Below, in pieces: positions 7,076-50,323 of a DNA stretch of 64,000 bases (position 1 is its first letter; each line of letters starts with the position of its first letter). The notes under the pieces were generated by a model. It was not told the origin of the DNA, did no database searches, and saw only the letters and a list, made by a program, of their open reading frames with translations. The stretch comes from Thaumarchaeota archaeon CSP1-1 (lineage in GTDB: Archaea; Thermoproteota; Nitrososphaeria; Nitrososphaerales; Nitrosopumilaceae): contig LDXL01000004.1 of the NCBI GenBank assembly GCA_001443365.1, positions 86,001 through 150,000 on the forward strand, in the 5' to 3' direction. Both the position numbers and the translations under genes were made by a program.

Positions 7076-7720
7076 TTATGCATCAGATCTAGGAAGCTTT
7101 CCATTTTTATCAAATGTATCTTGTACTGATTTGTCTGCAAAACCGTGTTGTATGTTAAGATCCTCTACTGCTTGGATTAGCTGCACTCGTTTTGCTGATG
7201 CATGTTCAAAGTAAGCGTCTCGAGCCTCCTTGAGTGATCCTCCATTATCTAGTACCACCTTCATTGCAGCTCTTGCACTGTCAACTTTGCCTTGCATGTA
7301 ATCAAACATTCCCCAAAATACACCCTGAATATAGTCAGGTTTTTTTTCAACAAATTTTGTATAAGCTGCCTTTGGCATCACGTCTTTGTATTTTTCAATA
7401 AAAGCATCCAGTTTTTCATCTAGTCGTTGTTGTGCGATAACTCTTTTTTCTTCTACCTCAACTTGTTGTGCAGTTAGTTTGACTGGTTGTGTCTTTTCTT
7501 GCATTTTTTGTGTGTATCTTAGTTTCTGTTTTTCCATTTCAGCAAGAATTTTCATTGCCAATGGATTTTTTTGGAGTTCTTCAGAAGCCTTTACAACTGG
7601 CTCTGAAGTTGCATCTGGCTCTGCAAAAGCAATTTGTGCTGTGCTTGTCCCAATCATTGCCATCATAACAACAATTGACAAGAATGCTGTTGGAAGGACT
7701 AATTTTTTCCCTTGCGTCAT
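7076..7720 (-). CDS. Exported helical protein of unknown function
   Basis: 214 residues with a signal peptide (Lys-containing start, hydrophobic residues about 10-30, Ala-Phe-Ala near 31-33). The mature protein is Lys/Gln/Glu-rich and strongly helical; residues about 45-110 have coiled-coil character, and no cysteine is present. I do not recognise a family. It may be a periplasmic-space or surface protein. The gene ends 18 bases past the convergent ASCH gene. Confidence 0.65.
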   Translation of the reverse strand: MTQGKKLVLPTAFLSIVVMMAMIGTSTAQIAFAEPDATSEPVVKASEELQKNPLAMKILAEMEKQKLRYTQKMQEKTQPVKLTAQQVEVEEKRVIAQQRLDEKLDAFIEKYKDVMPKAAYTKFVEKKPDYIQGVFWGMFDYMQGKVDSARAAMKVVLDNGGSLKEARDAYFEHASAKRVQLIQAVEDLNIQHGFADKSVQDTFDKNGKLPRSDA

Positions 7721-7987
7721 TACAGATGGAATTTTTAATTTTGAATATATCCATTAAACAGAAATCAGTAGAAATATTCAAATGTTAAAAAAACAATTTA
7801 CAATATATTTGCAAAATTAAAAACATGGATAACTTATCAGTTCTACGTATCCCTTATTTGTAAAACCATTTAGCATACAAAAAAAATCTAAAATCATTAA
7901 TCTAAAAGATGGTTCGATATCTCTAACAATAGCAGGAAACGCCACTAAAGAATTCTTAACTCAGTGAAATAGGGCAAATCTTATATT
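7721..7987. other. Intergenic region without a recognised gene
   Basis: Between the divergent exported-protein gene and the tbp promoter I see no RNA gene, repeat or convincing open frame. Short frames of 12-40 codons exist, but none has both a start codon and a TATA box in the right place. AT-rich stretches near 7775-7815 could supply the promoter of the minus-strand gene. Confidence 0.4.
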
Positions 7988-8021
7988 TAGTATATATAAA
8001 GGGCCTTTATAAGGACGTTAA
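7988..8021 (+). promoter_or_regulatory. tbp promoter with overlapping TATA palindrome
   Basis: A strong TATA box, TATATATAAA (7991-8000), is centred about 26 bases before the ATG at 8022, so the mRNA is probably leaderless. A perfect inverted repeat, TATAAAGG-G-CCTTTATA, covers 7995-8011 and thus creates a second TATA-like element facing the other way between the first box and the start. This arrangement could let TBP or another factor bind and limit its own transcription. The autoregulation idea is inference. Confidence 0.6.
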
Positions 8022-8585
8022 ATGCCACAGACAAAGCCAATTGTGAGTGTTGAAAACGTTGTAGCATCCGCTTCTGTAGATCAGAAAATAGATCTTAACG
8101 AGGTTACAAGAAAATTTCCGGATACTGAATACCATCCAGATCAGTTTCCAGGTCTAGTATTCCGTCTAAAGGTACCAAGAACTGCAACGCTGATTTTCAG
8201 AACAGGAAAAATGGTATGTACTGGTGCAAAATCCGAAGAAATGGCAATCAAAGCAGTAAGAACTGTAGTTCAAAAGCTTCGAAAAGGTGGAATTAAAATC
8301 AAAAAGGACGCTGTAATTGTTGTACAAAATATTGTAGCTGCAATTAACCTTGGTGGAAAGATTCACTTGGAACACGCAGCCCGAGTTCTTCCACGAAGCA
8401 TGTACGAACCAGAACAATTTCCAGGGTTGATACACAGAATGCTTGATCCAAAAACTGTAATTCTGTTATTTGCCTCTGGGAAACTAGTTTGTACTGGTGC
8501 AAAAAAGGAAGCTGACGTTTATCGCTCTGTTCACAATCTACACTCACTACTAGAAGAGAAAAAACTAATGATCTACGACGAGTAG
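8022..8585 (+). CDS. tbp: TATA-box-binding protein
   Basis: 187 residues forming the two direct repeats of the TBP saddle, about 6-95 and 97-185. Both carry the same signature: FPGLVFRL (repeat 1) and FPGLIHRM (repeat 2), followed by a strand ending in GKMVCTGAKSEE and GKLVCTGAKKEA. It is the general transcription factor that recognises archaeal TATA boxes together with TFB. The length is that of archaeal TBPs with no acidic tail. Its own promoter has an unusual symmetric TATA element. Confidence 0.95.
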   Translation: MPQTKPIVSVENVVASASVDQKIDLNEVTRKFPDTEYHPDQFPGLVFRLKVPRTATLIFRTGKMVCTGAKSEEMAIKAVRTVVQKLRKGGIKIKKDAVIVVQNIVAAINLGGKIHLEHAARVLPRSMYEPEQFPGLIHRMLDPKTVILLFASGKLVCTGAKKEADVYRSVHNLHSLLEEKKLMIYDE

Positions 8586-47992: not shown

Positions 47993-49705
47993 CTAGTATT
48001 TCCTCTCCACTGGTTTGTAATTTGTAATTGTAACCGGATGTTTTTTCATAATTGGTTCCTTAGGATCATAATAAGCAAGGGTGTGATGTAAGAAATTAGT
48101 ATCATCTCTTTTTGGATAATCGGTTCTTGCATGACTACCTCGAGATTCTTTTCTATGGATGGCACCAAGAAGGACAACTTCGGCAACCCTAAACATAGAA
48201 TCGAGCTCCATTACATTTGTAAAGTTTGTGTTGTATTCCTTAGCATGATCATCAACATGTTTCCAAGTTTTGCTTTTTAATTCTCGTACTTTCTTTAATC
48301 CAGCCACCATATCAGATTCATTTCTGTAGACATAGGCTTTATCGTTTAATGTATCTGTCAATTCTTGTCTAACTTCGTAAGGATTTACATCGCCATTTCC
48401 TCGAAATATTCCATCATAGATTCTCTTTTCTTCTGCTTCAACGAGATAATATGGAAAAGGTGTCATATGCTGCTTGTTTAAGATATAATCTACTGCAAGC
48501 TCGCCTGTAATTCTTCCCCATACAATGCATTCAGAGGTAGAGTTTGCCCCAAGTCTATTTGCTCCATGTACACTATTACAGGCAGCTTCGCCTGAAGCCC
48601 AGACTCCCTCAAGTTCTGTAGCACCATCGATATTGGTATGAATTCCGCCCATCATATAATGTGCTACTGGCCTCACATCCAAGGGTTCTTGGGCAGGATC
48701 AATACCCGAAAACTTGATTGAAATCTCTCTAATCGCGCCTAATTTTTCTTTGATAAGAGAATCACCTAAATGTCTCAGATCTAATTTCATACACTTTACA
48801 CCAGTTTCGTTATCAAAACCACGACCTTCATTAATCTCAGTCATCATTGCTCTAGAAACAATATCACGAGGGGCCAGCTCCATTTTACCTGCGGCATATT
48901 TTTTCATAAATCTCTCCCCAGTATTATTGAGAAGATAACCGCCTTCACCACGAGCTCCTTCTGTAATTAAAATTCCAGAGGGCAAGATTCCAGTTGGATG
49001 AAATTGTACAAACTCCATATCCTTAAGAGCCATACCTGCTCGATATGCCATATCTATCCCATCAGGAGTTGAGGAAAGAGCATAAGTTGCAAAGCTGTAA
49101 ATTCTTCCAGCACCTCCTGCAGCTATTATCAAAGCCTTTGCTTTGATAGTATAGAATGTTCCACTAGAAAGTTCAATTGCGGTAATACCCAAAAATCGTT
49201 GTCCATCATGAATAATTGACGTAGCAAACCATTCATTTAGAAATTCAATATTATCAAACTTTTGACAGGTATCATATAGTGTTTGCATTTCAAAAAATCC
49301 TACTTTGTCTGAGGCATATGTTGCTCGAGGATAGCTATAACCTCCAAAGTTTCGTTGTCCAAGTCGTCCATCTTCTCTTCTTGACCAAGGCATTCCCCAA
49401 TGTTCGAGCTGATAGATTTCATGAGGTATTTCGCGACAAAGTCTTTCTGCCACATCTTGGTCAGCTAAAAAGTCACTACCTTTTATTGTGTCGTATATAT
49501 GTGACTCGATTGTATCGCCTTCGTCTTCAAATAGAACAGCTGCTGTACCACCTTCTGCGGAAACAGAGTGCGAACGCATGACTTGAACTTTAGAAATTAC
49601 TGCGATCTTAATCTTTGAGCTTTTTTTTGCTGCAGCAATTGCAGCTCTTAGACCAGCAAGTCCAGATCCAACAATAAGCAAGTCATATTCAATAGAATCA
49701 ACCAT
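47993..49705 (-). CDS. sdhA: Succinate dehydrogenase flavoprotein subunit
   Basis: 570 residues. FAD binding is seen at LLIVGSGLAGLRAAIAAAK, the histidine for covalent flavin at MRSHSVSAEGGTAAV, and substrate-site segments QFHPTGILPSGILITEGARG, HYMMGGIHTNIDGATE, and VHGANRLGANS. It oxidises succinate to fumarate. It is the first gene of the operon; a TATA-like ACATATTTAACC (minus strand, near 49740) lies upstream, and the divergent padR promoter is 60 bases further. Confidence 0.95.
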   Translation of the reverse strand: MVDSIEYDLLIVGSGLAGLRAAIAAAKKSSKIKIAVISKVQVMRSHSVSAEGGTAAVLFEDEGDTIESHIYDTIKGSDFLADQDVAERLCREIPHEIYQLEHWGMPWSRREDGRLGQRNFGGYSYPRATYASDKVGFFEMQTLYDTCQKFDNIEFLNEWFATSIIHDGQRFLGITAIELSSGTFYTIKAKALIIAAGGAGRIYSFATYALSSTPDGIDMAYRAGMALKDMEFVQFHPTGILPSGILITEGARGEGGYLLNNTGERFMKKYAAGKMELAPRDIVSRAMMTEINEGRGFDNETGVKCMKLDLRHLGDSLIKEKLGAIREISIKFSGIDPAQEPLDVRPVAHYMMGGIHTNIDGATELEGVWASGEAACNSVHGANRLGANSTSECIVWGRITGELAVDYILNKQHMTPFPYYLVEAEEKRIYDGIFRGNGDVNPYEVRQELTDTLNDKAYVYRNESDMVAGLKKVRELKSKTWKHVDDHAKEYNTNFTNVMELDSMFRVAEVVLLGAIHRKESRGSHARTDYPKRDDTNFLHHTLAYYDPKEPIMKKHPVTITNYKPVERKY

Positions 49706-49791: not shown

Positions 49792-49815
49792 ATCGCTAGT
49801 GATATCACTAGCGAT
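49792..49815. promoter_or_regulatory. Perfect 24-bp palindrome over the padR start codon
   Basis: The half ATCGCTAGTGAT is followed directly by its exact reverse complement, giving 24 bases of perfect symmetry. The palindrome begins right at the end of the TATA-like TTAATATATA (49783-49792) and covers the predicted transcription start and the first two bases of the ATG at 49814. A dimeric PadR protein bound here would block its own transcription, so this is a strong candidate autoregulatory operator. It is also in the divergent region of sdhA, about 90 bases from that start. Confidence 0.75.
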
Positions 49816-50323
49816 GATTTCAGAATGGTTTCAAAGAGTTGGAAGCTCAATTCCAAGAGGTTTTTCGAGATATTTTATTTTAGAACTATTAAAAAAGACA
49901 CCACATACTGGAAAGGAAATAATTGATGCAGGCGTAAAACAAAGTCAAGGAATATGGAAGCCTTCCCCAGGATTGATTTATCCTCTTCTTGGCAGGTTAT
50001 TGGATGAAGGATTGATTGAGGAAACTAAATCTGGAAAATATCAGATTACTCGTAAAGGTAAATCTACTGCAGACGATCTTGATTCGGTAAACGATATTGT
50101 AAAAAAGCAACTAGATGTCCTGTTTAGAATAGGAAACGTTGGACGATTTGTAGCCTTGGATGTTTTAGAAAGAGTATCTTCTATGGGAGCATTGTTGAGC
50201 TCAAATGTATCTAACATGACAAAGGAAGAAACTACAAAATACAAAAAATTCTTAGAATCTGAGCTTCGAAAGATGGAAAAGCAGACAGATAAGAGAAAGG
50301 AAAAAGAGATCAAAATCGATTAA
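49814..50323 (+). CDS. PadR-family transcriptional regulator
   Basis: 169 residues. The N-terminal winged helix shows PRGFSRYFILELLKKTPHTG, the GxKxSPGxxYPxLxRLxxxGLIE pattern (here KPSPGLIYPLLGRLLDEGLI) and KYQITRKGKS for the wing, diagnostic of PadR. The C-terminal half is helical with a Lys/Glu-rich end and probably dimerises. A GTG at 49799 would add five residues but lies inside the palindrome; the ATG at 49814 is about 27 bases after the TATA box. Ligand and other targets are unknown; the divergent sdh operon is a possible target. Confidence 0.9.
   Translation: MISEWFQRVGSSIPRGFSRYFILELLKKTPHTGKEIIDAGVKQSQGIWKPSPGLIYPLLGRLLDEGLIEETKSGKYQITRKGKSTADDLDSVNDIVKKQLDVLFRIGNVGRFVALDVLERVSSMGALLSSNVSNMTKEETTKYKKFLESELRKMEKQTDKRKEKEIKID

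Follow-up and report, generated by a model that had tools for sequence, protein, structure and literature searches.

How does a cell set the level of a protein on which all of its transcripts depend? The TATA-binding protein (TBP) binds TATA boxes and is required for every archaeal transcript, and the setting of its level in archaea is little discussed in the literature searched. This question is raised by the promoter of a tbp gene in the window, which is the whole analyzed stretch of 64,000 nucleotides. The gene, ORF 8022-8585 (+), encodes a TATA-binding protein of 187 aa (Pfam PF00352, E 1.1e-56), and a tbp match is present in 58 of 61 related genomes. The host genome of 1.36 Mb contains three tbp genes and seven TFB-like ORFs, the latter identified by reading. 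Among the named genomes of the collection, it is most closely related to Nitrosopumilaceae-type MAGs such as Nitrosotenuis, Nitrosopumilus, and Nitrosarchaeum. The parts of the promoter are as follows.

7991..8001, plus strand: TATA box 1, TATATATAAAG, spanning −31 to −21 relative to the tbp ATG in leaderless geometry, as read from the sequence
8002..8005, plus strand: spacer GGCC, four G/C bases between both TATA elements, with letters that vary in relatives
8006..8012, plus strand: box 2, TTTATAA, also TATA-like and located −16 to −10 relative to the ATG, the proposed TBP autoregulatory site
7995..8011, no strand: exact 17-bp palindrome TATAAAGG-G-CCTTTATA, with arms of 8 and a central G
8022..8585, plus strand: tbp (Pfam PF00352)

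The palindrome at the tbp promoter

An archaeal TATA-box promoter of a leaderless gene has a TATA-like element 25 to 32 bp before the start codon, and box 1 occupies this position; the 12-mer GTATATATAAAG used in the searches below is at 7990-8001 of the window. A third TATA-like stretch, TTATATTTA, is located immediately upstream of box 1 at 7981-7989, and a similar T-rich stretch occurs in same-genus loci (L005, L009, L010). Assignment of the site to a divergent promoter of an upstream gene was rejected because the closest ORF on the minus strand begins at 7720, roughly 280 bp off. In several relatives, a codirectional ORF ends shortly upstream of tbp, as judged by eye.

The original prediction described a TATA-containing palindrome near the tbp start that creates a second, reversed TATA element before the start codon. 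The palindrome is there and exact at 7995-8011, while the range of 7991-8011 assigned to it contains four extra bases, TATATATA, outside of the palindrome. The window, with a GC content of 0.35, contains four exact palindromes whose arms measure 8 or more and whose spacer is 0 or 1, and about four are expected from base composition by our own arithmetic, so that the palindrome alone is unremarkable. Comparison with the relatives divided the rest of the prediction: the right arm loses its palindromic form, but the TATA-like character at the same place is kept, and the second TATA-like element is conserved and tbp specific, albeit as part of a direct repeat instead of in reversed form. A conserved inverted repeat, as the palindromic operator of a dimeric regulator, was not found in the relatives, which show the direct repeat. 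The palindrome as a functional unit was therefore rejected for its missing conservation in relatives and its frequency at chance level. The window looks inverted because its box 2 is the TTTATAA variant, and the palindrome is an incidental by-product of this variant.

Elsewhere in the window, a perfect 24-bp palindrome at 49792-49815 is situated at the start of ORF 49799-50323 (+), which is PadR-like by eye and divergent from a flavoprotein gene, 47993-49705 (−), sdhA-like in appearance. This palindrome is likely an operator.

Layout and tbp specificity of the doubled TATA element

Promoters of 108 tbp loci from relatives were compared, and pattern-match loci plus 80 loci from named genomes were added later. 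The anchored set comprised 75 distinct promoters with TATATATAA near the gene. Their layout was TATATATAAAG, a four-base spacer, and then the TATA-like box 2, and in the family it is a direct repeat, TATATAAAG-n4-TATTTAA(A), with both elements in the same orientation and 13 bp apart (TATATAAAG to TATTTAAAG). Measured from start to start, box 2 followed box 1 by about 15 bp. It was TATTTAA in 36, TATATAA in 16, and TTTATAA in 7 of the 75 promoters, with a few others, so the exact letters change while TBP-site character and spacing are kept. The spacer had 75% G+C and 35 different 4-mers. Box 1 was uniform and strong and box 2 more variable, although box 1 had served as the anchor of the comparison and owes its uniformity partly to this selection of rows. 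When 39 distinct promoters, of 121, were anchored on box 1, a TATA-like 7-mer started at +15 of box 1 in 32 of 38, and none started at +5 to +12 or +18 to +22 in the same promoters.

The 12-mer GTATATATAAAG occurred 38 times in 61 family genomes, 35 times at −31 to −34 of the tbp ATG (16 of these placements were made by coordinates) and 3 times elsewhere. Its extension to GTATATATAAAG-N4-TWTWWAW gave 32 matches in 31 of the 61 genomes, all 32 at tbp and all among the 35, compared to 1 match of the reversed-pattern control. A relaxed doublet pattern yielded 44 matches in 121 genomes, of which 36 were at tbp and 8 at other places; one of the 36 (G163) was oppositely oriented. These clade patterns were built from the tbp promoters themselves, so that their restriction to tbp shows a layout not repeated elsewhere but not its improbability, and the statistics are carried by the background comparisons.

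For the background, 346 genes of the host genome were used. Their TATA-like 7-mers peaked at −32 to −27 of the start codons, as expected for leaderless genes, and remained without enrichment at a baseline of about 2% at −18 to −10. Box 2, at −16 to −10, falls outside of the TATA peak of the genome, and an initially melted or proximal promoter element common to the promoters of the genome was not found among the 346 genes. Of 73 anchored tbp promoters, 66 contained a TATA-like 7-mer at a distance of +14 to +17 from the start of box 1; in the background, 3 of 74 genes bearing a TATA-like element at −34 to −27 had such a 7-mer at −18 to −15. Two or more TpA steps among 7-mers composed only of A/T were counted in 66 of 68 tbp promoters versus 81 of 286 background 7-mers at −20 to −9, which indicates that box 2 is TBP-site-like and not merely AT-rich. 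A general core-promoter feature was rejected for the host genome on the missing −18 to −10 enrichment and the 3/74 background genes. Sharing of the doublet with tfb genes was rejected as well, since the layout was absent from the seven tfb promoters of the host genome that were compared; one of them, L315, contains another TATA-rich sequence.

The promoter thus resembles the archaeal core promoter (TATA box and BRE) of leaderless genes in the usual distance of box 1 to the start codon and differs from it by the additional TATA-like element, which ordinary genes of the host genome lack at −18 to −10. A negative autoregulatory operator would be expected to be a conserved site that overlaps the core promoter and is specific to the regulator's own gene, and the doublet has these features, with 32 of 32 matches at tbp. 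The doubled TATA box, and not the reversed palindrome, is the conserved and tbp-specific feature.

Distribution of the doublet and its exceptions

Evaluation of the doublet within one archaeal phylum, to which the comparison was confined, used a simple definition: two A/T-only 7-mers, each with at least 2 TpA steps, at a start spacing of 12 to 17 for the group and paralog counts and 12 to 16 for a count of 36 families, which took one representative per family with a fixed window and left out f15. Start codons were called mechanically, and loci short of upstream sequence were dropped, for instance, L022 from the paralog count. At a spacing of 12 to 17, the closest tbp group carried the doublet in 46 of its 56 distinct promoters and the family as a whole in 80 of 146 tbp promoters; for tbp promoters of other families in the order, the count was 10 of 25, and for those of other classes, 22 of 49. 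In the background, 13 of 452 genes of the host genome and 31 of 371 genes of twelve other genomes had it. In the 36-family count, it was found at tbp in 18 representatives versus 29 of 371 (8%) background genes, and the other 18 representatives failed. The Fisher and binomial P values of this count and of the comparison of the 75 anchored promoters are overstated because related rows were treated as independent.

Two distant families possess tbp-only motifs of their own with the same layout as the family doublet. In f24, ATATTTAAATANRGGTWTWWAAA was found in 9 of 19 genomes, with 9 matches all at tbp, each 27 to 30 bp upstream of the TBP match, and 0 control matches. In f32, presumably a Sulfolobaceae-like family, 10 of 31 genomes had TATTTAAAWRRGGGN(0-1)TTTATAA, always at tbp and, by coordinates, some 68 bp before the first TBP repeat, and control matches for this motif were absent.

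The doublet does not accompany every tbp copy. In the host genome, it is located at one of the three tbp genes and missing from the other two, and at least one tbp promoter passed the test in 28 of 36 family genomes and none in 8 of the 36; some of these passes may be chance products of AT-rich sequence. A second tbp paralog clade (L028, L033 to L041, L045 to L047, and others) has its own conserved single CTTTTATTATAG-type box, and the doublet was present in 2 of 25 loci of the paralog clade with this type of box.

Other arrangements were observed at tbp loci. Just upstream of another tbp paralog in L067 and L068 is a near-perfect palindrome of 27 bp that begins and ends with TATA, and three TATA-like elements split by G or C runs are located just upstream of tbp in f2 (L071, L072, L354). 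Most tbp ORFs of f32 (L178, L330, L335, L336, L341, and others) lack an in-frame ATG, GTG, or TTG in the stretch from the upstream stop to the conserved domain, and in many of the f32 loci a GGTGA motif is followed 6 nt later by an ATT, ATC, or ATA codon. Translation of tbp thus may begin at a conserved non-AUG codon in this family, much as bacterial infC starts with AUU.

Possible readers of box 2

From the observed doublet, its position, its tbp specificity, and its recurrence, we infer both TBP as the reader of box 2 and repression as the effect. The best reading is that TBP, with or without TFB, binds to box 2 when abundant and blocks initiation at its own gene, which may have about an even chance of being correct. 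Box 1 (7991-8001) is the actual TATA box, at the position suited to a leaderless mRNA, and box 2 (8006-8012) lies about 15 bp downstream, where the N-terminal fold of TFB and the RNA polymerase must be accommodated. Abundant TBP, alone or with TFB, would also occupy box 2, and this occupancy would either block productive initiation at box 1 or lead to a useless start inside the gene, so that TBP would limit its own synthesis. The TATA-like character kept despite the letter changes fits self-binding by TBP, and a strong, uniform box 1 next to a variable box 2 suits repression at high TBP levels only. In the available text of a ChIP-exo study, the TFB N-terminal cyclin fold was placed at −12 to −14 in Saccharolobus preinitiation complexes (PMC8448881). 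Box 2 is at this position, and TBP or TBP-TFB bound there should exclude a productive complex on box 1. TBP of S. acidocaldarius did not bend DNA without TFB, according to the available text of another study (PMC4041446), so the blocker may be TBP-TFB and not TBP alone. In some lineages, TBP alone may be unable to hold box 2.

The doublet, or the palindrome, may instead be read by another DNA-binding regulator. Operators are typically palindromes close to promoters, and the spacer is G/C-rich on average over the 75 promoters, but its letters vary, and palindromy is lost while the TATA-like character persists, which makes such a regulator very unlikely. That nothing more than a chance palindrome in an AT-rich promoter is involved would agree with a palindrome frequency at chance level, but it is extremely improbable as an account of the site because the doublet is tbp specific and recurs over families; chance is refuted for the doublet and stands for the palindrome.

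Box 2 could also strengthen the tbp promoter as a readily melting or proximal promoter element and not be read by TBP. Its position adjoins the region that melts, and AT-rich elements near −10 aid open complex formation in archaea. This explanation is unlikely because the other genes are not enriched in TATA-like 7-mers there and because box 2 is TpA-rich and not just A/T. Moreover, in f10 (L090, L092), the boxes are by eye separated by about 11 to 12 bp, and it is the downstream box that sits near the usual TATA distance. The extra box thus appears upstream of the usual one, which fits a doublet of TBP sites better than a melting element. Alternatively, box 2 may capture TBP or serve as a backup box that raises local TBP binding, resulting in positive feedback or in expression that stays robust at low TBP levels. 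Occupancy could rise with two TBP sites side by side, and TBP necessarily activates its own gene, as modeled for eukaryotes in the available text of PMC2928763. A complex assembled on box 2 would, at a TATA-start distance of 25 to 30 bp, begin near codon 4 to 5 and not give a full-length product, which renders a capture function quite unlikely.

Self-limitation by TBP can be compared with systems in which a product controls its own promoter. Archaeal autoregulatory repressors (Lrp-like, Lrs14) cover the TATA/BRE region, and a paper by Bell and Jackson in 2000 is said to deal with autoregulation by an archaeal repressor. As in these cases, a protein would block its own core promoter; the difference is that a general factor, TBP, is proposed for this role and that a further TATA box would serve as the operator. 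The cis-repression signal of cytomegalovirus likewise serves self-repression and is located downstream of the TATA box and upstream of the transcription start. Its reader is a viral regulator instead of TBP, and the two systems are not related by descent. A kinetic model of eukaryotic TBP-gene autoregulation describes, in its available text, positive feedback via the TATA box of the gene (PMC2928763). TBP controls its own gene there, too, whereas the archaeal proposal is negative feedback via a second box. A description of a doubled TATA box or of TBP self-repression at an archaeal tbp promoter was not recognized in the literature search.

An ancient self-limiting switch throughout the phylum, with the extra TATA box as TBP's own operator sensing free TBP, is an extension of self-limitation that is slightly more doubtful than probable. 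The tbp-specific doubled TATA box offers a concrete and testable answer to the question of how the TBP level is set. If the answer is true, this would mean that the cells sense free TBP through the same type of DNA site that is used to start transcription, and a TATA box would then be working as an operator.
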